From IMG/VR virus record IMGVR_UViG_3300025154_000069, positions 1 through 64,000 of that record: a stretch of DNA of 64,000 nt. The stretch is one strand, 5' to 3'. The translations under genes were made by a program, and so were the position numbers. This stretch comes from a virus. Of the stretch, positions 48,235 to 64,000 are shown in pieces. Position 1 is the stretch's first letter, and each line of letters begins with the position of its first letter. The notes below the pieces were generated by a model. That model was not told where the DNA came from and searched no databases. It saw only the letters and a list, made by a program, of their open reading frames with translations.

Positions 48235-48738
48235 ATGGAACTTAAAGATGTTGGCAGGTATTTAATAGAGGGCATATATAAAAAAGATTTTGCTACAGTT
48301 TGTGATGAAAACCCTGATCTTATAAACACACCAGAACGGTTTGCAAAAGCTATTACCGAATGGTTCACACCTACCCCGTTTGAATTTACTACCTTTGATG
48401 GCGAGGGGTATGGTTTGGTAGCTGTTTCCGATATTGACTTCCACAGTTTTTGTGAGCACCACTTAGCAGCCATAATAGGCAAGGTTTCAATAAAGTATAT
48501 CCCGAATAAAAAAATAGCCGGGCTGTCAAAGTTTCCAAGAACAGTAAGATTCTTTTCAAAAAAGCCGATGATTCAAGAGAGGTTCAACAAAGAAGTTTTC
48601 GACTTCCTATGGGATAAGCTCGAACCAAAATACCTTAGAGTTGATGTTGATGCTTTGCACACCTGCATGACTACAAGAGGTGCTAACTCGGTCAATTCAA
48701 GCACAAAAACATACATAGAGAAGGGAGAGCAACAATAA
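48235..48738 (+). CDS. folE: GTP cyclohydrolase I
   Basis: 167 residues, a short (T-fold only) form of the family. Zinc ligands are visible: C73 in CEHH (73-76) and C144 in HTC (142-144); IKYIPNKKIAGLSKFPR and QER are the substrate-binding signature. It turns GTP into 7,8-dihydroneopterin triphosphate, first step toward folate and toward the 7-deazaguanines preQ0/preQ1. In phages it usually supplies preQ0 for DNA modification by DpdA, and a DpdA-like gene is 13 kb downstream here. It is not QueF: the QueF NADPH-binding E-S-K-S motif is missing. Confidence 0.88.
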   Translation: MELKDVGRYLIEGIYKKDFATVCDENPDLINTPERFAKAITEWFTPTPFEFTTFDGEGYGLVAVSDIDFHSFCEHHLAAIIGKVSIKYIPNKKIAGLSKFPRTVRFFSKKPMIQERFNKEVFDFLWDKLEPKYLRVDVDALHTCMTTRGANSVNSSTKTYIEKGEQQ

Positions 48739-48781
48739 AATAATAGTTGCTTTTCTTGTCTATTTTCTCCCCGAAAATTCT

Positions 48782-48789
48782 TATATTTA
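48782..48789 (+). promoter_or_regulatory. Possible promoter before the ssDNA-binding gene
   Basis: TATATTTA with CTTG 23 bases upstream; 7 of 8 positions of the -7 element. It precedes the ATG at 48822. Confidence 0.4.
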
Positions 48790-48821
48790 CTAATTAATAA
48801 ATACTAACTAAATTTAGCGTT

Positions 48822-49628
48822 ATGCCAAAAATTGAAACTAAAAATCCTGAAAAAGGTATCAGAAAGCCGAAAGTGGCACAAAAGAATGAAGATTCCCAAG
48901 AAGATGTGTGGGATCAGATTGAGAAGATGAAACCATCCGGGGGTGGAAATTTCGAGGAGTTAAAAGACTCAAACGGATTCTCAAAGAAAGATGTTAATTT
49001 CTTTCTTGATGATGATAACAAGGAGGCAGATATTGTAATCCTTGCAGCCGTTCCCTACATTATCCCGATTCACTCGATGGTAAAAATTGTAGAACCGCAA
49101 AAGGGAGCATCCTTTAAGGTGTACCCGGTTAAAACATGCTTGAAAATTTCTTCAAAATCTTGCCCGTACTGTGACAAATCATCAACCTCAAAATCGGTCA
49201 AGAAAGCGTATGACGGAATATTTTTCCCAATGGTTGATCTTCGTGGAAAGAGAACAGAGGACAAGGATTATGACGGTGATGCTTTTCCAAAGTTCATGAA
49301 GGTTACAAGGGATGAAGCTATGCAAATCCGTGACATGATTGACTCCTTGAAAGAGGACAAAATGAAAATTTCTGATGTTGTTGTCAACGTAGAAAAGACC
49401 GGGAAGCAAAGAGTTTTCTCGATCAAGCAAGTAAAAACAAAGGGGAGACAATTCGAGGAGGTTAAGGTTGACACCGAAGTAAAGAAGCTCGCAAACGGTG
49501 ACATTGCCTCTGCAACAATAGAGGATGAAAAGAACGAATATTTCTCAGGTAAAACCCCGTTGTTCTCCGAACTTTGGGCTACACCGGAAGAGTATGCCGA
49601 TGCAGAAAGAGAAGCATCAGACGTTTAG
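48822..49628 (+). CDS. Probable ssDNA-binding protein, gp32-like
   Basis: 268 residues. Disordered basic start, a beta-rich core (about 65-200) with a zinc-type motif C-x(7)-CPYC near residue 105-117, and an acidic C-terminus (EEYADAEREASDV). Basic start, zinc-containing OB-like core and acidic tail fit T4 gp32-type proteins, and the gene lies with primase, RNase H and polymerase. The full family match cannot be shown by eye. RNase H start lies inside its 3' end. Confidence 0.5.
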   Translation: MPKIETKNPEKGIRKPKVAQKNEDSQEDVWDQIEKMKPSGGGNFEELKDSNGFSKKDVNFFLDDDNKEADIVILAAVPYIIPIHSMVKIVEPQKGASFKVYPVKTCLKISSKSCPYCDKSSTSKSVKKAYDGIFFPMVDLRGKRTEDKDYDGDAFPKFMKVTRDEAMQIRDMIDSLKEDKMKISDVVVNVEKTGKQRVFSIKQVKTKGRQFEEVKVDTEVKKLANGDIASATIEDEKNEYFSGKTPLFSELWATPEEYADAEREASDV

Positions 49629-50127
49629 GATTTTTACCGATGGTGCTTGTAATAATAGGAGCGTAAAACGTGGCGGTTGGGGATTTGTTGTCATATTTAA
49701 TAGCAAGAAAATATACTCAACAGGAGGGTTTGAAAAAGAGGAAACAACGAGCAATCGTATGGAACTCACTTCTGTATTACAAGCACTTCTTTATCTTATA
49801 GAGATAGAGGTAAAAAAGTCGGAGGAAATTCTAATCATATCCGACAGCATGTACGTTGTAAACAGCTTGAATAATGACTACTCCCTACTTAAATCTTGGT
49901 ATGCAAAAAACTTTAGGCACTACGTAAAAAATGACGAGGGTATCTCGGTAGTGCAGGATATTAAGAACAAGGATTTGTGGTCAGAAATATACGCCTGCTT
50001 AAAGAACATCGGAGAGGTTAAATTTAAGTGGGTAAAGGGGCACTCAGGAAATGAATATAATGAGTTGGCCGACAGGATTGCAGTACGAATGAGAAAATTT
50101 GCAGAAAATGTTATCGAGGAAGTATAA
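49600..50127 (+). CDS. Ribonuclease HI
   Basis: 175 residues from the ATG at 49600 (alternatives 49594 and 49525 overlap more). Active-site residues in order: IFTDGACNN (D14), SNRMEL (E), IISDSMYV (D) and the C-terminal VKGHSGNEYNELAD (H and last D). It removes RNA primers from Okazaki fragments. GGWGFVV and TGG strands are typical. It overlaps the ssDNA-binding gene by 29 bases and the polymerase gene by 20. Confidence 0.9.
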   Translation: MQKEKHQTFRIFTDGACNNRSVKRGGWGFVVIFNSKKIYSTGGFEKEETTSNRMELTSVLQALLYLIEIEVKKSEEILIISDSMYVVNSLNNDYSLLKSWYAKNFRHYVKNDEGISVVQDIKNKDLWSEIYACLKNIGEVKFKWVKGHSGNEYNELADRIAVRMRKFAENVIEEV

Positions 50128-52105
50128 ATACAAGGTTATAGATAGCTTAAAAGGTCTTAAAGACTTTATATCCGAATTTAAGCATCAAGAATTTGCGTGG
50201 GATACGGAGACCACATCACTTAGGTATCATCCATTGCAGATAACCGCAATGAGCATATACACCACGGAATCAGAATTTTCTTATGTGTTCCTATTTAACT
50301 TTACAGCCACTTATCAGGTAAAGGTTAAGGACACTATCACAAAGAAGATGGTTCCTTTGATTGTTCAATACGAAAAGAACACAGCTATCGACATTCTTGA
50401 AGCAGCACCGTTGCTCCGTAAATTTTTTGAGGGCAAGGAACTTGTTACAGCTAATGGTAAGTTTGACTATAAGGTTGCAAGAAAGTACGGTTTTGCTACA
50501 TTCACCATAAAGGATGATGTCAATATGATGAGCTTCTACATTGACAGTAATGCAAAAAAGGGGCTAAAGATAAATGCAAAGCAGTACCTTGGTTTGGATA
50601 TGATCTCCTATGCCGAGGTAACGAAACAAAAGAATGATAACATAAATTGGGATGAGGTGGATTGGGATAAGTTTTGCTCTTATTCCGGATTGGATGCATT
50701 CGCTACCTACCATTTAAGGAATAAGCTGTTACCGATACTTAAAAATGTGGGAAGAACGGGGAGCTCAAAGTTTGCTGATCGAGATGCATATAAAAACTAC
50801 CTTGAAATAGGGTTGCCTACTGCGTTAATAGCTGCTCAAATGGAGATAGATGGTATTCACATTGATGTTGACTACCTAAAGAAGATGAGTGTTGTTGCCA
50901 ACAAAGAGATGGAGATAAAGAGATTTAAGGTGTATGAGTCGGCAGGATATTCATTCGATCTAAATTCACCCAAACAAATCGGGGAGGTGTTCTTTGATAA
51001 GCTCGGCATTGAGCCACCGATAATAACAGATAAGGGTAATCGGTCTACCAATGAAGAGGCTTTGAAAATACTTCACTATAGAGAGTTTGATGCAGCAGGG
51101 TACTTACTCGAATACAAGAAGTTGAGCAAGTTGGTTTCCACGTATATTGATGCCATTCCCGATATTGTTGATGGCGATGGTAGACTCAGGGGGAGTTTCA
51201 ATAATACAGGGACTTCGACTGGAAGGTGGAGTTCCTCAGAGCCAAATTTACAAAATCAGCCTAACAATAAAAAGTTTAAAGTCAGAAATTCTTTTACAGC
51301 CCCAAAAGGAAAGGTGTTCATAGTTGGTGACTATTCTCAGATTGAATTTAGGTTGCTTACTCATTTCTCAAAAGACCCATATTTAACGGATGCGTACAAT
51401 AGAGGTGCTGACATGCACCAATTCACGGCTGACATTATCGGTTCTGCATCTGGCGTACACCTATCAAGAAACCAAGGTAAGACATTGAACTTTGCTATTG
51501 CCTATCTAATGCAGTATAAGAGCTTGATGGAAAACTTAAACGGGGGATTGAGAGATATGGTTATTTCCGGTGAGCTTACGAAGGAGCAATACTCTAAAAT
51601 GAGAGTTACACCGAATCAATCAAAGAGCATAATAAACTCGTTCTTTAATACGTTCACAGGATTCGATAACCTTGTTAACAATATTACAAGATATGCCGAG
51701 ATAACGGGTTTTGTTTCTACGATCGACAACTTTTGCAGACCGATACCAGAACTGCAAAGTAAAAAGTTCTACTCTTCCGGGAAAAGAAAAGCACTAAACA
51801 CTCTTATACAGGGAAGTGCTGCCGACATTATAAAACGGCTTATGATGAGAGCTTTTGTGTACATGCATGAGAACAGTGATTTGAAAATGCTTTTACAGGT
51901 ACATGATGAGCTTGTGTGGGAGTCGGATATTGATAAGGCCGAGAAGCACATGGGTAAACTTAAATACCTTGCCGAAAATGTATTTCCTGAGTGTAGGGTT
52001 CCTATTTTATTTGATATAGGAATTTATAAAACTTGGGGGGATGCTAAGGCAGGTAATAAATTGAAACTATTTAATGTTGAAGAATACATAACAGAAATAC
52101 AATGA
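50108..52105 (+). CDS. Family A DNA polymerase with 3'-5' exonuclease
   Basis: 665 residues from the ATG at 50108. Exonuclease motifs: WDTETTSL (Exo I), NGKFDYKVA (Exo II), YSGLDAFAT (Exo III). Polymerase motifs: A GDYSQIEFR, B RNQGKTLNFAIAY (R-x3-K-x3-F-x3-Y complete, Phe at the nucleotide-selecting position), C VHDE. Also TGRWSSSEPNLQNQP. No 5'-3' exonuclease domain, as in T7-type replicative polymerases. It is the phage's own replicase. Confidence 0.93.
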   Translation: MLSRKYKYKVIDSLKGLKDFISEFKHQEFAWDTETTSLRYHPLQITAMSIYTTESEFSYVFLFNFTATYQVKVKDTITKKMVPLIVQYEKNTAIDILEAAPLLRKFFEGKELVTANGKFDYKVARKYGFATFTIKDDVNMMSFYIDSNAKKGLKINAKQYLGLDMISYAEVTKQKNDNINWDEVDWDKFCSYSGLDAFATYHLRNKLLPILKNVGRTGSSKFADRDAYKNYLEIGLPTALIAAQMEIDGIHIDVDYLKKMSVVANKEMEIKRFKVYESAGYSFDLNSPKQIGEVFFDKLGIEPPIITDKGNRSTNEEALKILHYREFDAAGYLLEYKKLSKLVSTYIDAIPDIVDGDGRLRGSFNNTGTSTGRWSSSEPNLQNQPNNKKFKVRNSFTAPKGKVFIVGDYSQIEFRLLTHFSKDPYLTDAYNRGADMHQFTADIIGSASGVHLSRNQGKTLNFAIAYLMQYKSLMENLNGGLRDMVISGELTKEQYSKMRVTPNQSKSIINSFFNTFTGFDNLVNNITRYAEITGFVSTIDNFCRPIPELQSKKFYSSGKRKALNTLIQGSAADIIKRLMMRAFVYMHENSDLKMLLQVHDELVWESDIDKAEKHMGKLKYLAENVFPECRVPILFDIGIYKTWGDAKAGNKLKLFNVEEYITEIQ

Positions 52106-53259
52106 AAAAGAAGAAAGAAGTTGTTGTCGAAGATCAAGCAGAAGCTAAGAAAGAAGAGAAAAGCAAGTATGATAGTATTCACTTGGCTGCAAAATTACTG
52201 AATGATAAATACAAGAAGAAGCTGTTAAAAATAGGAAGTGATATTCCGAAGCTGCAAAGAGTTCCTTTCGGGTTCCCTTCTCTCGATTGGGTAAATGGCG
52301 GTGGTATTCCTATTGGAAGGATAATTGAAAAGCTCGGAAAGGAACACTCGTTTAAAACGGTTGAGGGGTTGCATGGATTGAGACAATTCCAAAAGTATTG
52401 CTTTAATTGTAATACCCCAAATGGGTTAGATGTTGTTTGGAAGCTCGATAAAAACGGGAATCCCGAAATAGAAAAATGCGTGTGTAAGAATTGCTCTGAG
52501 CCTAAAGCCACGATACAGGTTATTGTGGACTATGAAAAGACACTTGACAAGGAATTTGTCGAGAATTTTGGTATTGATTTAAACGGGGTGTTGTGGGTGG
52601 TTCCAGAAAAACCTTCTCAGGTTTCAAACATAATTCAAACATTCGCACAAAACGCAAATATCGGGTTGATACTTGTTGATAGTGTTGGAGCTTTTAGTTC
52701 CGATGCTGAGATAGACAAGCCTTTTGAAGAGAATAATATGAACAAGGGTGCTATTACGTTGAATGAGATTATGAGAAGGATAACGGCAGCGTTAAACTTC
52801 AATTCAAACTCTACAGACAAGCCCTCCACTACGGTTTATGTGATAAATCAATCCTACTCTTCCATAGGCTTATTTGTGCATGAAATACCACAGGGGGGAA
52901 GGGGATTGAGGCATACGAAGTCTATATCCTCAAAGAACCGGGTGGTGAATGAAGTGTATGATGATGAAAAGAACCTGCTCGGGACACATGTGGAGATACA
53001 TAACCAAAAGAACAAGGCAGGGATTCCACACAGGAAGGTTGAGGTATTTTTCAACCAAGACAAAAGTAATGATGTCGGATATTGCTATCCCGATTTAAAG
53101 GATGAATATTTTATGTTTGCCTTGAAGCTCGGTGTACTTAAACAAAAGGGCGGGTGGTATGAGTTCGGGGATAAGAAATGGCAGGGGAGGGATAAGGTTG
53201 TTGCTGATATGCCAGAAGAACTTATTGAGGAGGTAAAATCTAAGCTATACTATCAATAA
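52102..53259 (+). CDS. RecA-like recombinase with altered P-loop and zinc insertion
   Basis: 385 residues; ATGA overlap with the polymerase. The RecA core is clear: FGFPSLDWVNGGGIPIGRI, Walker B LILVDSVGAF, and NQSYSS in the position of the L2-adjacent segment. Unusual are the P-loop GKEHSFKT (79-86), where the usual second glycine is Phe84 while K85 and T86 remain, and an inserted four-cysteine zinc motif (C100, C103, C128, C131) just after it. The catalytic Glu is kept (DYEK, E145). ATP use may be weakened or altered. Basic/acidic N-terminus (KKKKEVVVEDQ). Confidence 0.8.
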   Translation: MKKKKEVVVEDQAEAKKEEKSKYDSIHLAAKLLNDKYKKKLLKIGSDIPKLQRVPFGFPSLDWVNGGGIPIGRIIEKLGKEHSFKTVEGLHGLRQFQKYCFNCNTPNGLDVVWKLDKNGNPEIEKCVCKNCSEPKATIQVIVDYEKTLDKEFVENFGIDLNGVLWVVPEKPSQVSNIIQTFAQNANIGLILVDSVGAFSSDAEIDKPFEENNMNKGAITLNEIMRRITAALNFNSNSTDKPSTTVYVINQSYSSIGLFVHEIPQGGRGLRHTKSISSKNRVVNEVYDDEKNLLGTHVEIHNQKNKAGIPHRKVEVFFNQDKSNDVGYCYPDLKDEYFMFALKLGVLKQKGGWYEFGDKKWQGRDKVVADMPEELIEEVKSKLYYQ

Positions 53260-53270
53260 TTCAAAATAAA

Positions 53271-53576
53271 ATGTATACAAAAGAAGATATTGAAAAAGCA
53301 AAACAGTATTTGAGTGATGAGGGGTACGGAACAGGCAGTAATTTTACTTTAGACACAGTGGCTAATTTAATGGCAGAGTGGTCAGCAAAAAACACCCCTA
53401 CCGCTTCGGTCGGTGATCCGTTGACTTACTCTGAACGTGAGGTAGATTTTGCTTACCTGACAGGGGTATTTAATGTTTCTGGAATTGACGGGCTGCAAAA
53501 GGAAATAGAGAGGTTAAAAGGAATAGGTAAAAATCCACATGACATTTTTTTCTATACCAAAACCTCACGGGCGTAA
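53271..53576 (+). CDS. Hypothetical protein, 101 aa
   Basis: Not recognised; charged, mostly helical. Lies between the recombinase and endolysin genes. The 42 bases after it contain a G/C-rich imperfect inverted repeat too weak to call a terminator. Confidence 0.5.
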   Translation: MYTKEDIEKAKQYLSDEGYGTGSNFTLDTVANLMAEWSAKNTPTASVGDPLTYSEREVDFAYLTGVFNVSGIDGLQKEIERLKGIGKNPHDIFFYTKTSRA

Positions 53577-53618
53577 CCCGCCTGTATTTTGTAGAGTTTT
53601 TAACCAAATAATTTTTAT

Positions 53619-54122
53619 ATGAATGTAGTTGATTTGCGTGGGAAACTTCCCACATGGAACATACTAAAACCGAGTGAGCCTAAGAAGTTTTATCCTAATA
53701 GGAACCTATTAGACATTACTTCGATCGGTGTGCATCATTCCCTTACGTTTCGAGGGTCTGCTGAGGCTTTTGCAAGATACCATGTCGAGCATAATTTATG
53801 GCCGGGTATCGGATATACTTACGTTATTGAAGAAGAGGATGGAAAGATAGAGTGGTGTTGGGATTGGGCTACCAAAACAGCACATGTTGGTAACTCTAAC
53901 AGAACATCTTTGGGAATATGTTTGGTTGGTGACTTTAGAAAGGAAAAACCGAAGGATTTTATGCTTATAGCAGCAGCAGAGTTATGTTCAATGCTTATGG
54001 ATAAAATACCTTCAATTAAGGAGGTAAAAGGTCACAGTTCCTATCCCGGATATTCTTGGAAGGAGTGCCCTGCTTTTGATGTAAAGCTCATAACTGATTT
54101 AATGCCCGGCTACAATGGATAA
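53619..54122 (+). CDS. N-acetylmuramoyl-L-alanine amidase endolysin
   Basis: 167 residues, Amidase_2 (PGRP-like) fold. Zinc ligands and catalytic residues: GVHHS (H39/H40), AHVGNSNRTS (H), and GHSSYPGYSWKECPAFD near the end. It cuts the bond between muramic acid and the peptide in peptidoglycan. There is no signal peptide, so it needs a holin or release by other means; holin candidates are only the unassigned membrane proteins at 37-39 kb and 58 kb. Confidence 0.88.
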   Translation: MNVVDLRGKLPTWNILKPSEPKKFYPNRNLLDITSIGVHHSLTFRGSAEAFARYHVEHNLWPGIGYTYVIEEEDGKIEWCWDWATKTAHVGNSNRTSLGICLVGDFRKEKPKDFMLIAAAELCSMLMDKIPSIKEVKGHSSYPGYSWKECPAFDVKLITDLMPGYNG

Positions 54123-54453
54123 TATCCCGGGGTGGTTGGGAGAGAAGGAATCTACACGTAAGTTTTCCGGAAAGCAAGAAAAGAGGTTGGCAAAGACCTT
54201 TAACGGGAAGCTTACGTCAAATTCCGGAGCTACTTTCGGGCAGAATGATATTGAGAGCAGGGAGTTCTCAATAGAAAGTAAAATAACGGCAAAGAAGAGC
54301 TATTCGATAAGTGTGGATGAGTTCGAGAAACTTATAAAGAGAACACCCAACGGCAAGATACCTGTTGAGGTTATTACATTTGACAAAGCTAATTTAGATT
54401 TAGCGGTTATTCGACTCGAAAATCTTCTTGAACTATTTAGAAATCAAAAATAG
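54115..54453 (+). CDS. PD-(D/E)XK-like nuclease, small, possible Holliday-junction resolvase
   Basis: 112 residues. FGQNDIESREFSIESKITAKKSYSI (about 42-66) has the D-x(n)-E-x-K active site of PD-(D/E)XK enzymes followed by the K-K-S-Y-S segment common in small phage resolvase-like proteins. The remainder, PVEVITFDKANLDLAVIRLENL, gives the last strands. Overlaps the endolysin by eight bases. The exact substrate is unknown. Confidence 0.55.
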   Translation: MDNIPGWLGEKESTRKFSGKQEKRLAKTFNGKLTSNSGATFGQNDIESREFSIESKITAKKSYSISVDEFEKLIKRTPNGKIPVEVITFDKANLDLAVIRLENLLELFRNQK

Positions 54454-54467
54454 TTTAATTTTGTTCT

Positions 54468-54495
54468 TATATTTGCCTAAATAACTTTATATTTG
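54468..54495 (+). promoter_or_regulatory. Two tandem -7 promoter elements
   Basis: TATATTTG occurs twice, at 54468-54475 and 54488-54495, both perfect matches; TTTG at 54460-54463 is 24 bases before the second. They precede the ATG at 54504 by 8 bases, so the leader would be almost absent for the second one. Confidence 0.5.
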
Positions 54496-54503
54496 ATTAA
54501 ATT

Positions 54504-54725
54504 ATGATACAGAAAAAAGACAAGAAACCGAAGGTTTTATTGAGCTATGAAAAGATCGGGAACATATACATGATGTACATACATGTAAAAGGGAAAGAGC
54601 CAAGAGCTATTGTATCTACGATTAATAAGAATGATTTTTTAAAGAAAAGCTCAACGTATGTGGAGCAGTATCTTAAAAAGGGGAGAGAGAAAGAAAAGTT
54701 CATAAAAGGATTATTCAAACTTTAA
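54504..54725 (+). CDS. Small basic hypothetical protein, 73 aa
   Basis: Not recognised. Lysine-rich, beta start (KVLLSYEKIGNIYMMYIHV) and helical end. First gene of the transcript that leads into the AAA+/VWA pair. Confidence 0.5.
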   Translation: MIQKKDKKPKVLLSYEKIGNIYMMYIHVKGKEPRAIVSTINKNDFLKKSSTYVEQYLKKGREKEKFIKGLFKL

Positions 54726-54737
54726 AAATTAAGCAAT

Positions 54738-55928
54738 ATGTTGAAGTTTTATTTTGTAGGCTTACCTAACGGGCATTTAGAGTTTTTACACAACCAGACC
54801 ACCTCTCAGGTTGATGGGGGGTCGTTGATTGACCCAAAGACAGAACTTAATATTCGATCAGGAGCTTTGTATGCCTGTTCGAGTATGTTCATTGTTAAGA
54901 ACAGGGTTATAGCGGAGGACATACATGAGATAATAATTAATGGTAACTCTCTCGAATGTGATGCAGAACTGTCACCAGAGGCAGATACCATTATAGGTAT
55001 GTATCTTAAAAAGGATTTGAACTCGGGTAATCCTTCGGCTGCACCGAAGAAGAAAATAGAGCCTGTGTCTCCTTTAGATGTTTTAAAAAGCAACCCGGCC
55101 TTAGCCCCACCCGATTTCAGACAAACAGGATTTTATGTTGATAAAGATGTTTGGTATTTCCTTATCTGGTCATACATGAGAAAGAATCAGGTTCTTCTTG
55201 TGGGAGATGCGGGAACAGGAAAGACATCTTTACCAAAATTGGTTGTGGCTGCAATAAACAACAGGCAAAAGAAGTATGCACAAGCTCCCATAGACATTCA
55301 TTATTTTGACATGATGACAAGTAACCCGGAAGCAGAATTTAAGGGTGGTCTAAGGGTAGCAGATGGAAAGACATTCTTTCAATACTCTCGGTTCTCTAAA
55401 GTTATTCAGAGTCCCGGGCTTTCGGTGTTGAATGAAATAAACAGGGGAACGAAACAAACACAGAATATTTTCATGTCGGTTCTTGACGATCAAAGAACTT
55501 TATTCATAGAGAAAGGTGACGACTTTGAAAAGATACAGGTTCATGATAATCATACGTTCTTCGCTACTGCAAACATCGGGAGCAGATACACGGGAACAAC
55601 GAGTATTGACCCGGCTGTTGCAAGGAGATTCGATTATGTGGAGCTTGTATATCCACCTAAAGACGAAGAGGCCAAGGTTCTTGAATATAGGACAGGGGTA
55701 GGCTCACGTGAAGCGGTGAAGATAGTTGAGGTATTGAACAAAATAAGAGAAAATAAGAACATCTTCACAAAGGTTTCTACGGCTGACGGGTTAAAGATAG
55801 CTCAAAAGGTTCATGCAGGGTACACGTTACCACAGGCTTTCGATTTTACAATATCCTACAGGTTTGACTCCGATTTAGTGGATGGCGGGGAGAGAGGTAT
55901 TCTTAAATCAATACTCACTGCCTTATGA
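54738..55928 (+). CDS. MoxR/CobS-like AAA+ ATPase
   Basis: 396 residues. N-terminal domain of about 110 residues, then Walker A GDAGTGKT (156-163), Walker B LSVLNEINRG (E233), sensor 1 FFATANIGSRYTGTT and the arginine finger region VARRFDYVEL. These are the marks of MoxR/CobS-type ATPases, which act as chaperones for VWA-domain partners. The partner is encoded directly downstream, overlapping by 4 bases. FDMMTSNPEAEFKGG carries the pre-Walker B element of the group. Confidence 0.85.
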   Translation: MLKFYFVGLPNGHLEFLHNQTTSQVDGGSLIDPKTELNIRSGALYACSSMFIVKNRVIAEDIHEIIINGNSLECDAELSPEADTIIGMYLKKDLNSGNPSAAPKKKIEPVSPLDVLKSNPALAPPDFRQTGFYVDKDVWYFLIWSYMRKNQVLLVGDAGTGKTSLPKLVVAAINNRQKKYAQAPIDIHYFDMMTSNPEAEFKGGLRVADGKTFFQYSRFSKVIQSPGLSVLNEINRGTKQTQNIFMSVLDDQRTLFIEKGDDFEKIQVHDNHTFFATANIGSRYTGTTSIDPAVARRFDYVELVYPPKDEEAKVLEYRTGVGSREAVKIVEVLNKIRENKNIFTKVSTADGLKIAQKVHAGYTLPQAFDFTISYRFDSDLVDGGERGILKSILTAL

Positions 55929-58027
55929 CATACAAAGAGTTTATAAAAAAGGATTGGTTAGATAGAAACTTCCTTGATTTTACGGTTAGAAACGTAAACG
56001 GATTCGATTGGCTCAGATACTATGGTACTGATGAGCACTCAAAGTTTTTGGGGAATGCTCAGGCAGTCGATATAGAAACAGCAGCTCTTGTTTTCAGTAA
56101 ACAAATGATCTCAGCTATTGCCCCAAGACCCATAAGCATAACTTTGGAGGGTGATGAGACGTACACCGATGGCCATAATACCATTGTTTTATCGAAGGAG
56201 ATCACAAAGAGTTTCCCAAGATTATCCAAGTATAATGTTATTGATGTTTATATCGGCTTATCTATTCATGAATCGGCACACATACTGTTTACAGATAATA
56301 AGCTGTGCCTTAATGCAGCTAAGAAGGTTAAAAATACCGATCTCTTTTTGCTTATTCATAATATTGTTGAGGATGAAAGGATAGAGAATTTAGTTGGTAT
56401 GAATAACCCGGGCTATTCAAGATATATAGCAAAAGCCAAGAGTTATTTTTTCAACAAGAATAATTTAGGGGTGTTTGATGCAAAGGAGGATATTTTAAAG
56501 ATTTTATCTGCCTTTACTTACATTATCCGTTACCCTTCTTCTACACCAGAAAACCTATTTACTGAGTTTGAGGTTATTCTTAATGAGATAATCTCTATAC
56601 TTACCCCGTACCCGAAAACAAATGAGGAAGCCCTTGAGGGGACTAAAAAGATTTACGACCTGCTTGTTCCTATGATTAAAGAGGTAGAAAATAAAGAGGA
56701 ACAAGAAGGGGAAAGTGATTCTGATTCCAAATGGAGTAAAGGCAAGTCTGGAAAGTCTAAAGGTGATGATGATTCGGAAGAGTCTGAGAAAAAAGATTCT
56801 GAGGAAGAAGAAAGCGGTGATAGTGGCGATGAGGAGCAAGAGGATGAACAAGAAGGTGAGGAAGAAGGTGGCGAGGGTGATGATGGTGAGGATGAAGAAA
56901 AATCTGACGGGGATGATGAAGAAGAGGGTGACGGCAGTAAGGATGATGCTAAGGAAGAGCCTAAAGAGAAAAAAGGTGCGAAGGGTAAAGAGAAGAGCTC
57001 GAAGGAAGAAAATGAGCCGAAGGAGGAAAAGGGTGATGATGGAAACAAAGACACCGAGCTAACTGAAGAGGTTAAAAAAGCGATAGCAGACATACTTGAT
57101 AAATTTGGGGTAAATGAAACGAAAGAGTTTACAGGGAGTAAACAAGAATTAGATAAGCTTAATTCAATAATTAGCTCATTAGACTTGTCACCAAAGTTAG
57201 GTACTTATGAACTATCCGCTTTCCCTACGGTTGTTAATACCCCCAAGTCTCCTTCCAGATCATATGATTATAGACAATCTGTTGCTAAGGTAGGTCAATT
57301 CTCGGCCTATTTAAGGGCTGTTTTGAGCACGTTGAATAAAGATGATGATTACTATGAGAAGGAGTTGCGTAGCGGTGACTTAGATGAGGATATGCTCCCC
57401 GATTTTCTTGCAGGTGGTTCAAACATCTATGAGGAAAGAACAACCATAAGGAATAGTGGTGGAGCCGTGATATTGATACTTGATGCATCCGGGTCGATAC
57501 AGACAAGACAGCTAAAGGGGGTTATAAGAGATATAGCCGTATTATTTCATAGAGCTTTGCACGGATTAAACAACATAGAATTTTATTGTTATCAACACAA
57601 TGCTCCCGGTTGGGGAAATGAGGTTTTAAACATGGGTATTCTATATGAGCATGGAAAAACTTTAGAGATGGATTGTGTTGCCTCTTATGATAACCCGATG
57701 GGTTCTAACAGGGATGGTCAAGCAATAATTTGGGCGGTGGATAGAGTAAAGAGTATATCAGAGCTCAACAGAAAGGTAGTATTTATGGTTAATGATGGAG
57801 AACCCTCGGCATCGGTTCCTGTAGGGTATGACACGACTACATACACAAGGAAGTGTGTGGAGCTCGTTGAGAAGCAACACAACACGATGGTGATACAGAT
57901 ACCAATATATCAAGCTATACGGAGCGAATTGATGTATAATGATTTTATTCCGTTCAAAGATTACCCAAGTCTTATAGATAAGATCGGGGAGAAAATACGT
58001 AAAATAATTAAAACTTTGCAGATATGA
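55925..58027 (+). CDS. VWA-domain protein, CobT-like, with HExxH-like motif
   Basis: 700 residues in three parts. N-terminal 250 residues are helical and contain HESAH (115-119) with a later EDER, a layout like zinc metallopeptidase sites (H-E-x-x-H ... E). A long acidic, disordered D/E/K/S-rich stretch follows (about 255-380). The C-terminal part is a VWA domain with a MIDAS motif DASGS (520-524) and a later D-x-G region. CobT-like proteins with this build work with a CobS-like AAA+ ATPase in metal insertion or protein remodelling. The partner gene is directly upstream. Confidence 0.8.
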   Translation: MTYKEFIKKDWLDRNFLDFTVRNVNGFDWLRYYGTDEHSKFLGNAQAVDIETAALVFSKQMISAIAPRPISITLEGDETYTDGHNTIVLSKEITKSFPRLSKYNVIDVYIGLSIHESAHILFTDNKLCLNAAKKVKNTDLFLLIHNIVEDERIENLVGMNNPGYSRYIAKAKSYFFNKNNLGVFDAKEDILKILSAFTYIIRYPSSTPENLFTEFEVILNEIISILTPYPKTNEEALEGTKKIYDLLVPMIKEVENKEEQEGESDSDSKWSKGKSGKSKGDDDSEESEKKDSEEEESGDSGDEEQEDEQEGEEEGGEGDDGEDEEKSDGDDEEEGDGSKDDAKEEPKEKKGAKGKEKSSKEENEPKEEKGDDGNKDTELTEEVKKAIADILDKFGVNETKEFTGSKQELDKLNSIISSLDLSPKLGTYELSAFPTVVNTPKSPSRSYDYRQSVAKVGQFSAYLRAVLSTLNKDDDYYEKELRSGDLDEDMLPDFLAGGSNIYEERTTIRNSGGAVILILDASGSIQTRQLKGVIRDIAVLFHRALHGLNNIEFYCYQHNAPGWGNEVLNMGILYEHGKTLEMDCVASYDNPMGSNRDGQAIIWAVDRVKSISELNRKVVFMVNDGEPSASVPVGYDTTTYTRKCVELVEKQHNTMVIQIPIYQAIRSELMYNDFIPFKDYPSLIDKIGEKIRKIIKTLQI

Positions 58028-58659
58028 AAAATTTTTGGAGAACGATTATCTTTATCTCATTAGGTGTTCACTTAGCCCTTTCTAACGCCAAGGTACTTTA
58101 TAACCTTGACACAGGGATAAAGAACTTCACCGACATTCAAAACATAAATGTGTTCTTATCCATATTCTTTGCTATAAGTTATGCAATAAGCACATTATAC
58201 CTAATAAATAAATCGGACAGGATTTGGCTGATAATTGTTTTTGCTGCACTCGATGGTATTCTTGTAGCACTTTGGTATATTAACATAATAGAGGGAGTAA
58301 CTTTTACTATTGTCGGAGGCTCGTTTTATGCGGTTTACACGTTTTTGATACTGATAGGAATCGGGGTGTTAAATGATAAAAATTCAGTAAGGAGTGAGTT
58401 ACACTTAGTAATGGATAGTAACAAAGAGTTAATAAAAGTTAATGAATCATTAGCTAAAAAGAACGAGGAATTGATTGATATTGCTAAGGGTATGGCATCC
58501 GGGTATGTATTTTATATCAAATGGCGGTTTAACAAATCTATCAATGATGAGAATATAAAAATGGCCGAAGAATTGTTTGAGTCGGTTGATAAAAATTTTA
58601 ACTTTACAGAATACACGACTGAGAATTTTAATCAAATTAAAAGTTTATTACATGGGTAG
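58024..58659 (+). CDS. Membrane protein with four segments and coiled tail, 211 aa
   Basis: Hydrophobic segments at about 4-20, 39-60, 66-85 and 92-115. The C-terminal 95 residues are soluble and helical (VMDSNKELIKVNESLAKKNEELIDIAKG). Overlaps the VWA gene by four bases and the next gene by eight, so it may be a membrane partner of the AAA+/VWA pair or a holin-like protein. Family not recognised. Confidence 0.5.
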   Translation: MKNFWRTIIFISLGVHLALSNAKVLYNLDTGIKNFTDIQNINVFLSIFFAISYAISTLYLINKSDRIWLIIVFAALDGILVALWYINIIEGVTFTIVGGSFYAVYTFLILIGIGVLNDKNSVRSELHLVMDSNKELIKVNESLAKKNEELIDIAKGMASGYVFYIKWRFNKSINDENIKMAEELFESVDKNFNFTEYTTENFNQIKSLLHG

Positions 58660-59446
58660 TTTAGCAAATTTATTGAAACCGGAAAGACTTCATGAGGTTC
58701 CTTTGTCACTTAACACCAAAGATGTTGACAGGAGATTGGAGAATGCAGAAACAGTGATGTTGTTTAACAGGATATTATCTAATCCGAAGAGGGTATCTAA
58801 ATCTCTTCATCCGTCAGAGGTCAGCAACCCGTACCAAAAGCCCTGCAACCTCAGATTTTATTATGATCTTACGGGGGCAGAGGTTAATAAATTGTTTGTT
58901 TCTGATGCTTCGGTGAACAATCAGCTTCAAATCATATTCGACACCGGAACACTTTTACACCTATACACCCAAGCAACTTTGTATGAACAAGGTTATCTGG
59001 AGGCATTTGAGGTTCCTTGTTCGGAGCCGGGAATACTTACCGAAGGGATGGCTGACGGAGTGTTTAATCCGGGTGTGCTCGACATACCAAAAGGAAAGAA
59101 AGCGGTGTACGAGTTTAAGACTATCGGAGATAACGGTTTTAGAAATCTGAGGGGAGCACCAAAGAAGGAGCATGTTGGTCAAGCAAGTATCTATGCAGAC
59201 ATATTGGGGATAGACTTGATCTATTTTCTGTATATGAACAAGAATACTTCTGAAACCAATAGTTTTCTGGTTCCTGTCGACAAAAAATTCATTGAAAAAT
59301 ATAGAGAGCTCGCTAAGTATTTGCGAGACCTTATTAAGAGAAACACATTAAAGAAGGTTAAAACTTTTCCGGACAGAATATGCAAAACAAAAAAGGACGG
59401 GGAAGCAATTAATTGTAGATTTTCGGACATTTGTTTTAAACAATAA
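58652..59446 (+). CDS. PD-(D/E)XK exonuclease, Cas4/RecB-like
   Basis: 264 residues from the ATG at 58652. Motifs: GMADG (D), YEFKT (E-x-K), and QASIYADILGID (Q). One cysteine near residue 57 (PCNLR) and three near the end (CKTKKDGEAINC, C at the last third position) fit the Fe-S cluster ligands of Cas4/AddB-type nucleases. It probably resects DNA ends for recombination with the RecA-like protein. The last Cys is 3 residues before the end. Confidence 0.75.
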   Translation: MGSLANLLKPERLHEVPLSLNTKDVDRRLENAETVMLFNRILSNPKRVSKSLHPSEVSNPYQKPCNLRFYYDLTGAEVNKLFVSDASVNNQLQIIFDTGTLLHLYTQATLYEQGYLEAFEVPCSEPGILTEGMADGVFNPGVLDIPKGKKAVYEFKTIGDNGFRNLRGAPKKEHVGQASIYADILGIDLIYFLYMNKNTSETNSFLVPVDKKFIEKYRELAKYLRDLIKRNTLKKVKTFPDRICKTKKDGEAINCRFSDICFKQ

Positions 59447-59450
59447 ACCA

Positions 59451-59645
59451 ATGGAAAATGTTACCAGAGAAGAACTCGAAAGGGCGGTTAGAGCCTGTAA
59501 CTCTAACATCACGGTTGAATACCTAAAAGATAAGAGCATCGAATCTCTTTTGAGGTTGATGCATCCTGTAGAAAGGAATAAATACAAACGAAGATTAGGG
59601 TTAATAAACGAAGGAGAAGAAAAATATGAAATTGACGAAACATAA
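59451..59645 (+). CDS. Hypothetical protein, 64 aa
   Basis: Not recognised. Charged helical protein with KRRLGLINEGEEKYEIDET at its end. Overlaps the next gene by 20 bases, so it belongs to the same transcript. Confidence 0.5.
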   Translation: MENVTREELERAVRACNSNITVEYLKDKSIESLLRLMHPVERNKYKRRLGLINEGEEKYEIDET

Positions 59646-60135
59646 CAGGGGTAATGACATTGATCTGTCATTCTTACCAGAGGCAGCGGTTGATAGAATA
59701 ACCGATATATTTGATTCTTACAAGAACACCAAGGTTATTCCATCAGTAGCTAAACCTTCGGGAGCACCAGAATTTCCTAATAAAGTTTCCGGGGTAGACT
59801 TGAATGAGCTTAGGGATTATCATTCACAATTCGAGAGTTGGCTCGGTTACACAAAAGACAGACTAAAATTCTTTAAAGTAGTCAAAACTGTAGTGTCTGA
59901 TCTCATGGATGATGCCTATAACAAGCGTATGGCTGATTTAAAAGATGCTAAGGGGAATATTGAGGGTAAGAAAGCTCATGCAAGAATAGGGAAAGAGTAT
60001 TTAAACCTAAAAGCTATTTACATAAAGGCAGAAGCTCTTGAAGAAATGTTGTATAATGAGACTACAAGGCTTGAAAGCCATGTAATGTCGCTAAGAGCCG
60101 AATTAAAAAGTAGAGAGTTGAACTCTAATTTTTAA
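59626..60135 (+). CDS. Hypothetical helical protein, 169 aa
   Basis: Not recognised. Helical and charged, likely coiled coil in the second half. Located between two nuclease genes. Possibly a recombination accessory protein by position only. Confidence 0.5.
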   Translation: MKLTKHNRGNDIDLSFLPEAAVDRITDIFDSYKNTKVIPSVAKPSGAPEFPNKVSGVDLNELRDYHSQFESWLGYTKDRLKFFKVVKTVVSDLMDDAYNKRMADLKDAKGNIEGKKAHARIGKEYLNLKAIYIKAEALEEMLYNETTRLESHVMSLRAELKSRELNSNF

Positions 60136-60139
60136 TAGG

Positions 60140-60628
60140 GTGGAAAAGAAAACTACAAATAGGCGAACATGGAAAAACTTCGAGACCGAGGTTGCCAAGA
60201 TGTTTGGAACGAGCAGAACACCTCTTAGCGGTGCGGTTCAAAGTTTAACAAGAGCAGATACTCTCCACGCTAAATTGTTTTTTGAGTGTAAGCTCAGGAA
60301 TGAAGATCACCCTTTTGTTATTTTACACAAGATTTTTTCCAACCATAATAAGACCGTTATAGCCTGTGATAGCCTTTTAATTATGCACGATTCGGTGTTT
60401 GATGAGTTATACAGAACTAAGCTTACGGTAAAAAAGATTAGGCTAACACACAAAATTGTATATAAGAATTTAAAAAGTATTGTAACTTTGTACGACAAAA
60501 CAAGAGAAAAGGCAGAAATTGAGAAGAAAATACCGGTAGTTGCCATAAAGATTAAAAGCAAAAGGGGGTTCTTCTTGGGGTTTGACCTTAAAGACTATCA
60601 AGAAATTTTAGACTACTATGGAGAATAA
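60140..60628 (+). CDS. PD-(D/E)XK-like endonuclease, possible Holliday-junction resolvase
   Basis: 162 residues, starting with GTG. FGTSRTPLSGAVQSLTRADTL (about 23-43) followed by LFFECKLR gives the D ... E-x-K active site; the R-T-P-L-S-G lead-in is common to a family of phage nucleases. Third nuclease of this fold in the 54-61 kb block. Overlaps the next gene by 11 bases. Confidence 0.6.
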   Translation: MEKKTTNRRTWKNFETEVAKMFGTSRTPLSGAVQSLTRADTLHAKLFFECKLRNEDHPFVILHKIFSNHNKTVIACDSLLIMHDSVFDELYRTKLTVKKIRLTHKIVYKNLKSIVTLYDKTREKAEIEKKIPVVAIKIKSKRGFFLGFDLKDYQEILDYYGE

Positions 60629-60914
60629 AAGCAGCATTTTGTTTGTAAAAAGTACAACGCCAACCAAACAGTTAGCATCCTCGATCGTATTGAAATATGA
60701 ATCGGAAGGAGCTAAGGTAATCGTTTTACGGTCTATTGGAGCCGGGAGCATAGCACAGTGTACTTATGGAATCCTTGTCGCAAAGGGAATACTCGAAAAA
60801 AAGGGAAAATCGGTGTCGATGGATTTCAAGTATGTCGATGTTATAAATACCCGGGAAAACAAAGATACAAAGCCGAAAATAACTGCGGTGGAGTATACGG
60901 TCTCCGTATATTAA
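60618..60914 (+). CDS. SpoVS/Alba-like protein
   Basis: 98 residues. The pattern LFVKSTTPTKQLASSIVLKY ... VLRSIGAGSIAQCTYGILVAKGIL ... FKYVDVI ... TAVEYTVSVY matches stage V sporulation protein S (SpoVS), an Alba-like nucleic-acid-binding fold. Here it is encoded by a phage of a non-sporulating group, so it is not about sporulation; a DNA- or RNA-binding role in recombination or packaging is plausible. Next to the nuclease and protease genes. Confidence 0.7.
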   Translation: MENKSSILFVKSTTPTKQLASSIVLKYESEGAKVIVLRSIGAGSIAQCTYGILVAKGILEKKGKSVSMDFKYVDVINTRENKDTKPKITAVEYTVSVY

Positions 60915-60944
60915 AACAGAATTATAAATAGAAGAATAGATTAT

Positions 60945-61334
60945 ATGTTAGAAGTTAAGATTATTCCTAAAAGGAGTGAATCCTTTAAGTTAATTTATGT
61001 TGAAGGAGAAATATTGAAGCTTTTCGGTGAGAGGATAAAGGGTTATTTTTTAATTGACACGGGAGCCACACTATCCATTATACACAGTAATTATTCGGAC
61101 TTCCTTAGAGATACAGAATCAATAACGCTTGTAGGTGTTACAGGACAGAAAAAAACCAAGCATGGAATACTTGATATTGAGATCGGGGGTAGTAAATTTA
61201 CCATAATGAATGCGGTTTCTTCTGACTTTAAACCTATGAAAAAGGGTACGTACTTAGGCATATTGGGCTTAGATTTCCTTATAGAAAATAGCTGTACTAT
61301 AAATTTAGTTGAAAATATTTTGCATATTAATTAA
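60945..61334 (+). CDS. Retropepsin-like aspartic protease
   Basis: 129 residues, one domain, so it would act as a dimer. Active site FLIDTGATLSII (D38-T-G-A), and the second conserved motif ILGLDFLIENSCTINL before the C-terminus, are those of clan AA retropepsin-like proteases. Substrate unknown: a phage head or tail precursor or a host protein. The head genes do not include a recognisable prohead protease. Followed by a separate promoter. Confidence 0.78.
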   Translation: MLEVKIIPKRSESFKLIYVEGEILKLFGERIKGYFLIDTGATLSIIHSNYSDFLRDTESITLVGVTGQKKTKHGILDIEIGGSKFTIMNAVSSDFKPMKKGTYLGILGLDFLIENSCTINLVENILHIN

Positions 61335-61349
61335 AAGGTGTTATCTTTG
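61319..61349 (+). promoter_or_regulatory. Strong Bacteroidota-type promoter
   Basis: TTTG (61319-61322), 19 bases, TATCTTTG (61342-61349): both elements complete. It serves the 39-residue gene at 61407 and possibly the DpdA gene by read-through. Confidence 0.65.
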
Positions 61350-61406
61350 TTTCAACTAAAGTATACTACATGTTGTATTTTTAAAAAGGTTTAAAATTTT
61401 ATAGCT

Positions 61407-61526
61407 ATGAAAAAGACCATCGTTTTAGGTGTGGGCGCATTAGCCAAATCTGCAATTTCAAGAACAAGAAGTTTGGTTCAAAGATCAAATGCATTTAACG
61501 CCACATTAGCCGGAGGCGGAAGATAA
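61407..61526 (+). CDS. Short peptide gene, 39 aa, own transcription unit
   Basis: Encodes MKKTIVLGVGALAKSAISR... ending LAGGGR; a basic amphipathic or short hydrophobic start and R-rich middle. It lies alone between a strong promoter and a strong terminator, so the gene is probably transcribed at high level. Function unknown; a small regulator, antimicrobial-type peptide or virion protein are all possible. Confidence 0.55.
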   Translation: MKKTIVLGVGALAKSAISRTRSLVQRSNAFNATLAGGGR

Positions 61527-61553
61527 GTACCCTCCAAACTAATCGCACATACT

Positions 61554-61582
61554 AAGCACCTATAATCAGGTGCTTATTTTTT
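61554..61582 (+). terminator. Rho-independent terminator
   Basis: Perfect 8-bp stem AAGCACCT / AGGTGCTT (61554-61561, 61568-61575), loop of 6, then ATTTTTT. It lies between the 39-residue gene and the DpdA-like gene, so DpdA is made from read-through or an unrecognised promoter. Confidence 0.85.
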
Positions 61583-61610
61583 AAGTTTAAGAATCTATAT
61601 TTTGGCAGTC

Positions 61611-64000
61611 ATGACTTCATATGAAGATAAATTCGTTCCTTTTTTAGCAGTAACCCCAAACAAGCAATTTTTCAATTTATTTCAAAGAGCCGGGGTTAAG
61701 AATATCCTTATTTCCTACTACTACATAAAAAAGAATCCAAGTCTTGCAAGAGATTTTATGGATTATGCTTCCTCGGTTGGTGGACTTGTTATGGTTGACT
61801 CCGGGGTTTTTACTTTATATGCCGAGAAAAAGGTGAGGGAGGATGATGAGTACCTTAAATTCCTTGAAGAGTATGTTAGGTTCCTACACACAGATAAGAA
61901 CAGAATTTTCTCTGCCTGTAACTTCGATATGGATATACTTTTCGGGTATGATAAAATAGATAAATGGAACGAAAAATTCTTTGAGCCGTTAGAAGGGGAT
62001 ATTAACATCATATATGCGGTGCATCCGATTGGCAACCACAACCCGCTAACACGATTTAAGGAATACTCAGAAAAATATAAGTATTTAGCTATAAACGAGG
62101 ATTTAACCAAATATGCACAAAGTATTTATCAGTTAGCTAAGAGAACGGGAACCAATATACATGGGTTAGCATGGACTAAACCTACTTATTTAAAGCAGTA
62201 CCCATTCTTCTCGGTCGATAGTGTTACAGGAGATTCTGTTGTAGACATTCAAATTGATGGGGTATCTATGAGTATACCTATTGAAGAGTTATATAGGTTT
62301 TTTTCTCCAACAGCAGTAGAAAATTCTAAGGGTCAATTTGTGACTAATCCGGACAATGTAAATGCTTTAACCCTAAATAAAGACAATAAACTTATATGGT
62401 CTAAACTTTCCGGTGTTCTTATGCATGCAGTAAAAAAAGAGATGTTTAAAATCACCTTGGAGGGAAATATAAGTATTGATGTAACCTCTGACCACTCTTT
62501 AATTTCTATGGATAAAGATGGGTTACTTTATGAACTTAAACCCAACAGCTTAACTACTGATAGTTTTTTGCTGTATAAAAAATTTTCCCCCAATAAAAAT
62601 AGCGATGTTCCTTTCATAGATTTTACAATAGACCCTAAAAAATACAGTCACATAGCTGGGGAGCACAGAGTTGTTCTCGATGAGATATTTCTTAATTTTC
62701 TTGGGTATTGGGTTGGAAATGGGCATTTTGATAAAGGAAATATTTGTATTTCCGGGTATCAGTATTCGGAGGTCGCCAAAATTATTGAGCGAATAGCAGA
62801 GAGATATGAAAGAACGGTTAACATAAGGGATAATGGTATAGATTGCTATATAAGCTGTACTTGGTTAGCAACCCTTATGCGGCATATGGGATTTTTAAGT
62901 GGTTCAGCTAACAAAAGTATTCCAAACATTATTTTTACTTTATCTACCAAACAAATTTGTTGGTTTTTAAAGGGATATTATTCTGCTGATGGTAGTGGCT
63001 ATTCTGCAAGTTGTTCAACAATATCTAAATCTTTATCTCTTGATTTGTCCACTATTTTAAGTAACTTAGGGATAATATTCAGCCTAAGTAAAAAAGAGGG
63101 TAAGATAGGCGGGTATAGTAGTGGAAAAAGCACTCTATACACTATAAGTATAGTAGACACCAATAGTAAAAAGGTATTCTTAGAAAAAATAGGCTTCCTA
63201 CAGGATTACAAGACAAAGATTATTGGGGATGAGATAGCAAAAAGGGTGGGTAAGAATCAGGTATGGAGTAAAAAATTAGGTGTTCCCAAGGTACTATCTC
63301 TTAAAGGCAATATAAAGCATAAAAAGTATTCTGCATCAATTAGCTCTATAAAAGGTTGGAGAATAAATAGAGAAAATAACAGAGGATTTTTTTCTGATAA
63401 AGTGTTGGACTCAGATGTTCTATTTCTTAAAGTAGTAGCTATTGATAAGTATGTTCCCGATGATGATATATTGGTATATGATCTTTGTGTTCCGGAGACA
63501 GAAAACTTTATAGCTAACGGTGTTGTAGTGCATAACAGCTCTTCTTGGGTAGGCTATCAAAAGTACGGCTCTACTGTTTACTTTGATGGGAAGGAGTTTT
63601 ATCAGTATGATAACAAGAAAAAAGATATACGGAAGAGCTTGCGCCCATACTGTATTAAGTATGGTGTTAAATTTTATGAGTATGTTAATGAAAAAGATGA
63701 AAAGACGGGGGCGCACAATGATGGCGAAGGATTGACGTTTTCTATAAAAAGTTGGCTTGAAGTGTTGGAATCTATCAAAAAAATTGCTAATTTTAAACTA
63801 AAAACAAAAATCAAGGACATGATAAAGAATGATAAGCTCGTTGAATCCGTCACAGACTCGGAAGAGGATGATGAAGAAGGTATGAGCCTGAGTGAGGCGG
63901 TTGCCACTACAGAAAGCGGTGCAGCAGCTTATGAGTTGGTTATAGCAAAAGATGTAATTTCTTATGACAATATTCCAAATACGCATAAGAACATTATGCT
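61611..64000 (+). CDS. dpdA: DpdA/TGT-like guanine transglycosylase with intein, incomplete
   Basis: Runs off the right edge (at least 796 codons). The first part has MVDSGVF (D63), the position of the DSG catalytic motif in tRNA-guanine transglycosylases, in a TIM-barrel-like context (SSVGGLVMVDSG, IIYAVHPIGNHNP, NIHGLAWTK). The intein splits SVD / SSSW; splicing gives FSVDSSSW, where the nucleophilic Asp motif of TGT/DpdA lies. DpdA exchanges guanine in DNA for a 7-deazaguanine. The C-extein from 643 includes a Y/K-rich part, an acidic linker (SEEDDEEG) and continues beyond the window. The phage also has folE. Confidence 0.72.
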   Translation, partial: MTSYEDKFVPFLAVTPNKQFFNLFQRAGVKNILISYYYIKKNPSLARDFMDYASSVGGLVMVDSGVFTLYAEKKVREDDEYLKFLEEYVRFLHTDKNRIFSACNFDMDILFGYDKIDKWNEKFFEPLEGDINIIYAVHPIGNHNPLTRFKEYSEKYKYLAINEDLTKYAQSIYQLAKRTGTNIHGLAWTKPTYLKQYPFFSVDSVTGDSVVDIQIDGVSMSIPIEELYRFFSPTAVENSKGQFVTNPDNVNALTLNKDNKLIWSKLSGVLMHAVKKEMFKITLEGNISIDVTSDHSLISMDKDGLLYELKPNSLTTDSFLLYKKFSPNKNSDVPFIDFTIDPKKYSHIAGEHRVVLDEIFLNFLGYWVGNGHFDKGNICISGYQYSEVAKIIERIAERYERTVNIRDNGIDCYISCTWLATLMRHMGFLSGSANKSIPNIIFTLSTKQICWFLKGYYSADGSGYSASCSTISKSLSLDLSTILSNLGIIFSLSKKEGKIGGYSSGKSTLYTISIVDTNSKKVFLEKIGFLQDYKTKIIGDEIAKRVGKNQVWSKKLGVPKVLSLKGNIKHKKYSASISSIKGWRINRENNRGFFSDKVLDSDVLFLKVVAIDKYVPDDDILVYDLCVPETENFIANGVVVHNSSSWVGYQKYGSTVYFDGKEFYQYDNKKKDIRKSLRPYCIKYGVKFYEYVNEKDEKTGAHNDGEGLTFSIKSWLEVLESIKKIANFKLKTKIKDMIKNDKLVESVTDSEEDDEEGMSLSEAVATTESGAAAYELVIAKDVISYDNIPNTHKNIM
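62220..63536 (+). mobile_element. Intein with LAGLIDADG homing endonuclease in DpdA-like protein
   Basis: 439 residues. It begins with Ser1 (SVTGDS, the usual C/S-x-T-G-D block A) and ends VVVHN with Ser+1 after it. Block B-like VTSDHSLIS is present. LAGLIDADG motifs are LGYWVGNGH (364-372) and FLKGYYSADG (452-461). It is not similar in length to the TerL intein (365 residues) and has Ser rather than Cys as first residue, so the two were probably gained separately. It lies next to the catalytic Asp of the transglycosylase. Confidence 0.9.

Follow-up and report, generated by a model that had tools for sequence, protein, structure and literature searches.

Does the phage behind IMG/VR record IMGVR_UViG_3300025154_000069 exchange guanine in its own DNA for a base which it makes itself, and can it do so with an enzyme whose active site is interrupted by an intein? 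We analysed bases 1-64000 of this 79,079-bp record, a stretch of 64,000 bases called the window in the following, and extended it to the right with record positions 60001-79079 (locus L002; L002 coordinates plus 60000 give the record numbering). The reading we favour, with a probability of about 85%, is that phage-made preQ0 would be exchanged for guanine in the phage DNA by a spliced DpdA, and that the resulting dPreQ0 would protect this DNA from restriction.

A complete preQ0 gene set and its lineage

The first 127 bases of the record are apparently identical to the last 127, as 50-base probes of each end map onto the other end with an offset of 127. This terminal repeat makes it very probable that the genome is complete, and that it is either circular or circularly permuted. 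The phage, with its genome of about 79 kb, is myovirus-like, judging from its matches to tail sheath and baseplate proteins. A DNA-topoisomerase-like protein (L002 11284-12255; phrog_6247, 5.9e-88) and a sliding-clamp-like polymerase processivity factor (L002 15436-16665; phrog_947) are also encoded. Among named phages, the closest portal proteins are those of BS162P1 (from Bacteroides salyersiae), of MT835482, a human-faecal phage, and of the BRock group of Streptomyces phages, and the closest named DpdA proteins come from the same phages. Because the nearest relatives of both proteins are found there, a Bacteroidota bacterium is probably the host.

The preliminary description had placed a GTP cyclohydrolase I (FolE, first step of preQ0 synthesis) with intact zinc ligands at 48235-48738. 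The ORF, on the plus strand, has exactly these borders, reaches 138 bits against PF01227 (cut-off 27) and 9.8e-41 against phrog_2197, and its zinc-ligand motifs CEHH and HxC line up with the FolE of phage 9g. The middle genes of the pathway were supposed to lie further right or to be supplied by the host, and the extension indeed contains them on the plus strand within 2.7 kb past dpdA: queC (64390-65085; PF06508, 222 bits), queD (65926-66387; PF01242, 93.7 bits) and queE (66380-67033; phrog_2076, 1.6e-37). Two ORFs without assigned function (65072-65452 and 65465-65923, plus strand) lie inside this cluster. Alignment to the 9g enzymes reveals that QueC retains the PP-loop SGGQDST and the cysteine motif, QueD the Cys, HxHGH and the C-terminal ET, and QueE the CxxxCxxC motif. 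The minimal set of five (FolE, QueD, QueE, QueC, DpdA) is complete in this one record. What did not hold is the earlier statement that FolE and DpdA bracket the pathway in known phages: in 9g the order is queE-hypothetical-(Gat-)queC-queD-folE-dpdA, with folE and dpdA adjacent. In the present genome folE is located 12.9 kb upstream of dpdA. This distance, and the fact that FolE also serves folate synthesis, count against the pathway reading.

Relatives of this DpdA were recovered by a profile search, while a search with the single sequence gave nothing; the collection of bacterial and archaeal genomes searched for DpdA relatives yielded none. In the comparison set of eight other records of the DpdA clade (G001-G006, BS162P1 and MT835482), QueC and QueE are present throughout. 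QueD and FolE are each found in seven of the eight, the gap being L011 (a 30-kb fragment) for QueD and MT835482 for FolE. The DpdA-like proteins of the Streptomyces phages BRock and GiJojo and of Bacteroides phage BS162P1, the closest named relatives, go together with the same Cys4 domain as in the protein of the window (fused in the Streptomyces phages, a separate gene in BS162P1) but are without intein, and in BRock, unlike here, preQ0 genes were not detected.

To which base these genes would lead depends on further enzymes, and genes for other modifications were sought family by family. For QueF (PF14489) only FolE matches below the cut-off were obtained, ArcS (PF17884) gave no match, the alignment of QueC to the 9g enzyme contains no Gat domain, and the preQ0 transporter YhhQ was looked for but not found. 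Because QueF and ArcS were not found and QueC is without a Gat domain, the phage fits group 2, to which Escherichia phage CAjan and Mycobacterium phage Rosebush belong (PMC6884629). Like these two it has the full set of FolE, QueD, QueE, QueC and DpdA and no amidotransferase. It differs from them by the distant folE, by a DpdA with an intein and a Cys4 domain, and by nearest named relatives which infect Bacteroides and Streptomyces. In CAjan dPreQ0 amounts to about 32% of G and is lost when dpdA is inactivated, and in Rosebush it amounts to about 28% of G (PMC6884629). Phage 9g has the same four preQ0 enzymes, but there QueC carries a Gat domain and the product is dG+.

As no amidotransferase was found, dPreQ0 would be expected here rather than dG+ or dPreQ1. 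A host enzyme or an unrecognised phage enzyme, for which the two ORFs inside the cluster offer room, could convert the base so that dADG, dG+ or dPreQ1 would be inserted, and unexpected bases have been reported in nt-1 and 7-11 (PMC6884629). We regard such a conversion as unlikely, since neither QueF-L nor ArcS nor a Gat domain was found and CAjan and Rosebush, which share this gene set, have almost only dPreQ0 (PMC6884629).

DpdA: family, fold and predicted nucleophile

A TGT/DpdA-like protein starting at 61611 and running past the window edge had been described before, and this is what we find: the dpdA ORF extends on the plus strand from 61611 (ATG; alternatively a TTG at 61602) to 64385 and matches phrog_887 (queuine tRNA-ribosyltransferase) with 2.4e-28. 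Its N-extein (61611-62219, plus strand) covers the TGT barrel to where strand 8 ends and contains Asp63 (in DSG), His184 and, as the last residue in front of the intein, Asp203. The C-extein begins at 63537; its part inside the window (63537-64000, plus strand) completes the TGT domain, and the remainder up to 64385 holds the Cys4 domain. With the spliced protein as query, tblastn finds JenP1 and SE1 (E 1e-6), 9g (E 5e-4), EC151 and other annotated DpdA proteins. The identity to the experimentally tested DpdA is low (20.7% for 9g), which has to be held against the pathway reading. The 9g protein is homologous and shares the DSG, HG and DSSSW motifs, but has 317 aa and neither intein nor Cys4 domain. 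Its His196, a residue which is conserved in 9g-type DpdA and absent from DpdA2 (PMC6884629), corresponds to His184 within IHGLAW. An assignment to the nt-1 type DpdA2 was considered and rejected, given this histidine and the 9g match in tblastn.

A result that would speak against a DpdA had been named beforehand, namely a structural match outside the TGT superfamily; the comparison pointed to TGT instead. The model of the window protein itself is poor within the intein, and the fold was examined on the intein-free relative L008 (IMGVR_UViG_3300028584_000286), whose TGT domain shares 52% identity with that of the window protein. The barrel region of L008 shows the eight strands in order with pLDDT values mostly between 70 and 94. 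When L008 was re-aligned to PDB chains, all 50 matches listed were TGT, with Z values of 17.0-17.7 over about 280 residues; the best reached 17.7 over 279 residues, and the preQ0 complex 1p0b is among the matches listed. Foldseek's own top rows were TIM barrels of OMP decarboxylase plus one integrase, not TGT, and because of these first rows the TGT assignment rests on the re-alignment together with the sequence family. PDB sequences compared with the DpdA profile gave no match, and in a sequence-profile comparison with E. coli Tgt only the DSG motif aligned (to DSGG), at low probability.

In the L008 model strand 3 ends with Asp70 (DSG), and strands 7 and 8 contain His193 and Asp212, respectively. 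The catalytic nucleophile of the Z. mobilis TGT is Asp280. By its position in the barrel, and from general knowledge of these enzymes, Asp203 of the window protein (Asp212 of L008) is the predicted nucleophile equivalent to Asp280.

A TGT fold would equally suit an enzyme which acts on host tRNA, as in a queuosine-type modification serving translation, and some phages possess preQ0 genes without DpdA that may boost tRNA Q (PMC6884629). We consider it highly improbable that host tRNA and not phage DNA is the substrate. The window protein matches no TGT model of Pfam at E 0.1, its sequence family is that of the phage DpdA proteins (phrog_887; 9g-like, with the His196 equivalent kept), the aligned sequences show, behind the barrel, no CxCxxC zinc motif of the kind found in tRNA TGT, and no QueF was found that would provide preQ1, the substrate of the bacterial TGT.

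An intein at the active site

The DpdA-like enzyme was suspected to contain an intein, and this is borne out by an element of 439 aa (62220-63536, plus strand) with Ser1, a block B TSDH, a LAGLIDADG endonuclease, the C-terminal HN and Ser+1. It scores 62.7 bits against PF14890 (cut-off 35.8) and 39.3 bits against LAGLIDADG_3 (cut-off 22.5), and TIGR01443 and TIGR01445, which model the two splicing ends (N- and C-terminal), also exceed their cut-offs. The intein is inserted directly behind the predicted nucleophile (YPFFSVD/intein/SSSW). Its removal would restore YPFFSVDSSSW, to be compared with FFSVDSSSW in L008 and YSCDSSSW in 9g. Because the intein separates Asp203, at the end of strand 8, from the conserved SxxW, the active site would be incomplete until excision.

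The empty site is found in seven distinct relatives: L008, L009, L010, L012, L013, BS162P1 and L046/L047, the last two being counted once as they look like one sequence at the insertion site. Related inteins are present in the DpdA of MT835482 and of L011 (IMGVR_UViG_3300029989_000117). These two sit behind FFSSDS, one codon downstream of the insertion point in the window protein. The intein shares 38% identity with either of them, compared to 34% for the TGT domains. With a related intein sitting one codon away in two relatives, DpdA is marked as a recurrent intein target. The presence of the intein is patchy: L009, whose TGT domain shares 69% identity with that of L011, has an empty site. 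A nucleotide-pattern scan of IMG/VR for further inteins of this kind returned only the contig already known, and an intein-profile scan gave only partial and weak relatives. In the literature searched (non-subscription papers) no intein in a DpdA or queuine transglycosylase was found. Homing-endonuclease inteins in catalytic motifs are known from mycobacteriophage TerL and other phage proteins, with several nearby insertion points in one active centre (PMC5050341). The intein described here is of the same kind, but the interrupted protein is a DNA base-exchange enzyme.

Could the intein have ceased to splice, so that the phage has lost, or is losing, a working DpdA? The first LAGLIDADG motif reads WVGNG, with Asn in place of the Asp of WLGDG and WIGDG in MT835482 and L011, and the second, YSADG, is intact. 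The loss of this acidic residue suggests that decay of the endonuclease has begun and that its activity may be impaired. The class 1 residue set is nevertheless complete (Ser1, TxxH in the form of TSDH, HN and Ser+1), the precursor frame is open throughout about 924 aa, and the motifs of both exteins are conserved. Loss of the endonuclease with retention of splicing is what one expects in the middle of the homing cycle, and splicing residues are expected to be kept when the host enzyme still matters. A dead DpdA therefore has very little probability in our view, and the intein would still be able to splice.

The Cys4 domain, the dpdA neighbourhood and the proposed pathway

Behind the barrel a domain with the pattern CxxC-x5-CP-x7/8-C is followed by an ERV..E..GG stretch. 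This Cys4 domain has no family in Pfam and matches the C-terminal part of phrog_887. It is fused to DpdA in the window protein, in L008, L012, L013 and in the Streptomyces phages, and BS162P1, MT835482, L009 and L011 encode it in an ORF of its own that follows dpdA directly. Among the phage records it was found only together with DpdA. The fusion in some phages and the separate adjacent gene in others suggest a partner subunit, and the domain probably assists DpdA, for example by gripping the DNA.

Upstream of the dpdA operon the window contains a weak Bacteroidota-promoter-like match to TTTG-N-TAnnTTTG (61319-61349, plus strand). There are six matches to this consensus in the window compared to 2.9 expected, and 11 of 100 shuffles also reach six. 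A small ORF of about 39 aa (MKKTIVLGVGALAKSAISRTRS...) and a terminator-like hairpin follow in 61410-61576, just ahead of dpdA. The hairpin with its T run (61553-61576, plus strand) is a weak candidate with a 9-pair stem, and 0.8 of such structures are expected by chance in the region. Attenuation ahead of dpdA is possible. A riboswitch ahead of dpdA, of the preQ1 type or another, was also considered, but no Rfam match above the gathering score was obtained in the window or in 60001-79079.

Further genes were noted in this neighbourhood. A retropepsin-like aspartic protease (DTGA ... ILGLDF) is encoded upstream of dpdA both in the window (60945-61334; Pfam RVP, 22.6 bits, cut-off 20.7) and in L008 (6991-7578). 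The preceding ORF (60618-60914) encodes a SpoVS-like protein (PF04232, 28.4 bits, cut-off 24), and similar small ORFs adjoin the dpdA cluster in L003, L004 and L008. A Holliday-junction-resolvase-like nuclease (phrog_2002) is located at 60140-60628; the related ORF of BS162P1 is annotated as an I-HmuI-type endonuclease and is apparently an insertion. At 54738-58027 a MoxR-type ATPase, recognised by eye, is followed by a VWA/CobT-like protein, a pair unusual in phages, and a similar VWA-type gene is found near dpdA in L008. In Fusobacterium phage phiFN37 (L007, 5926-7753) a DpdA-like gene is annotated beside ParB-like genes and a queuosine-precursor transporter.

In the pathway that we propose, FolE, QueD, QueE and QueC of the phage would make preQ0, and translation of dpdA would yield a precursor of about 924 aa whose intein must first excise itself. 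The spliced DpdA, a putative DNA-acting member of the TGT superfamily presumably assisted by the Cys4 domain, would then swap guanine for preQ0, and the dPreQ0 formed would shield the phage DNA from host restriction. The pathway itself is already known; the features in which this phage departs from it are the intein in the active site and the Cys4 domain associated with DpdA.

A more speculative idea, which we hold to be quite improbable, is that the intein serves as a timer: splicing would set the onset of DNA protection, insertion at the same motif would have been selected repeatedly, and the Cys4 domain would be an unrecognised partner needed for activity. If this were true, the rate or the conditions of splicing would decide when the phage DNA becomes protected. 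Returning to the pathway as proposed, it would extend preQ0-type modification to Bacteroides-type myoviruses akin to Streptomyces phage BRock. With its DNA base-exchange enzyme interrupted at the active site by an intein, the phage offers a natural precursor whose base exchange could be switched by splicing.
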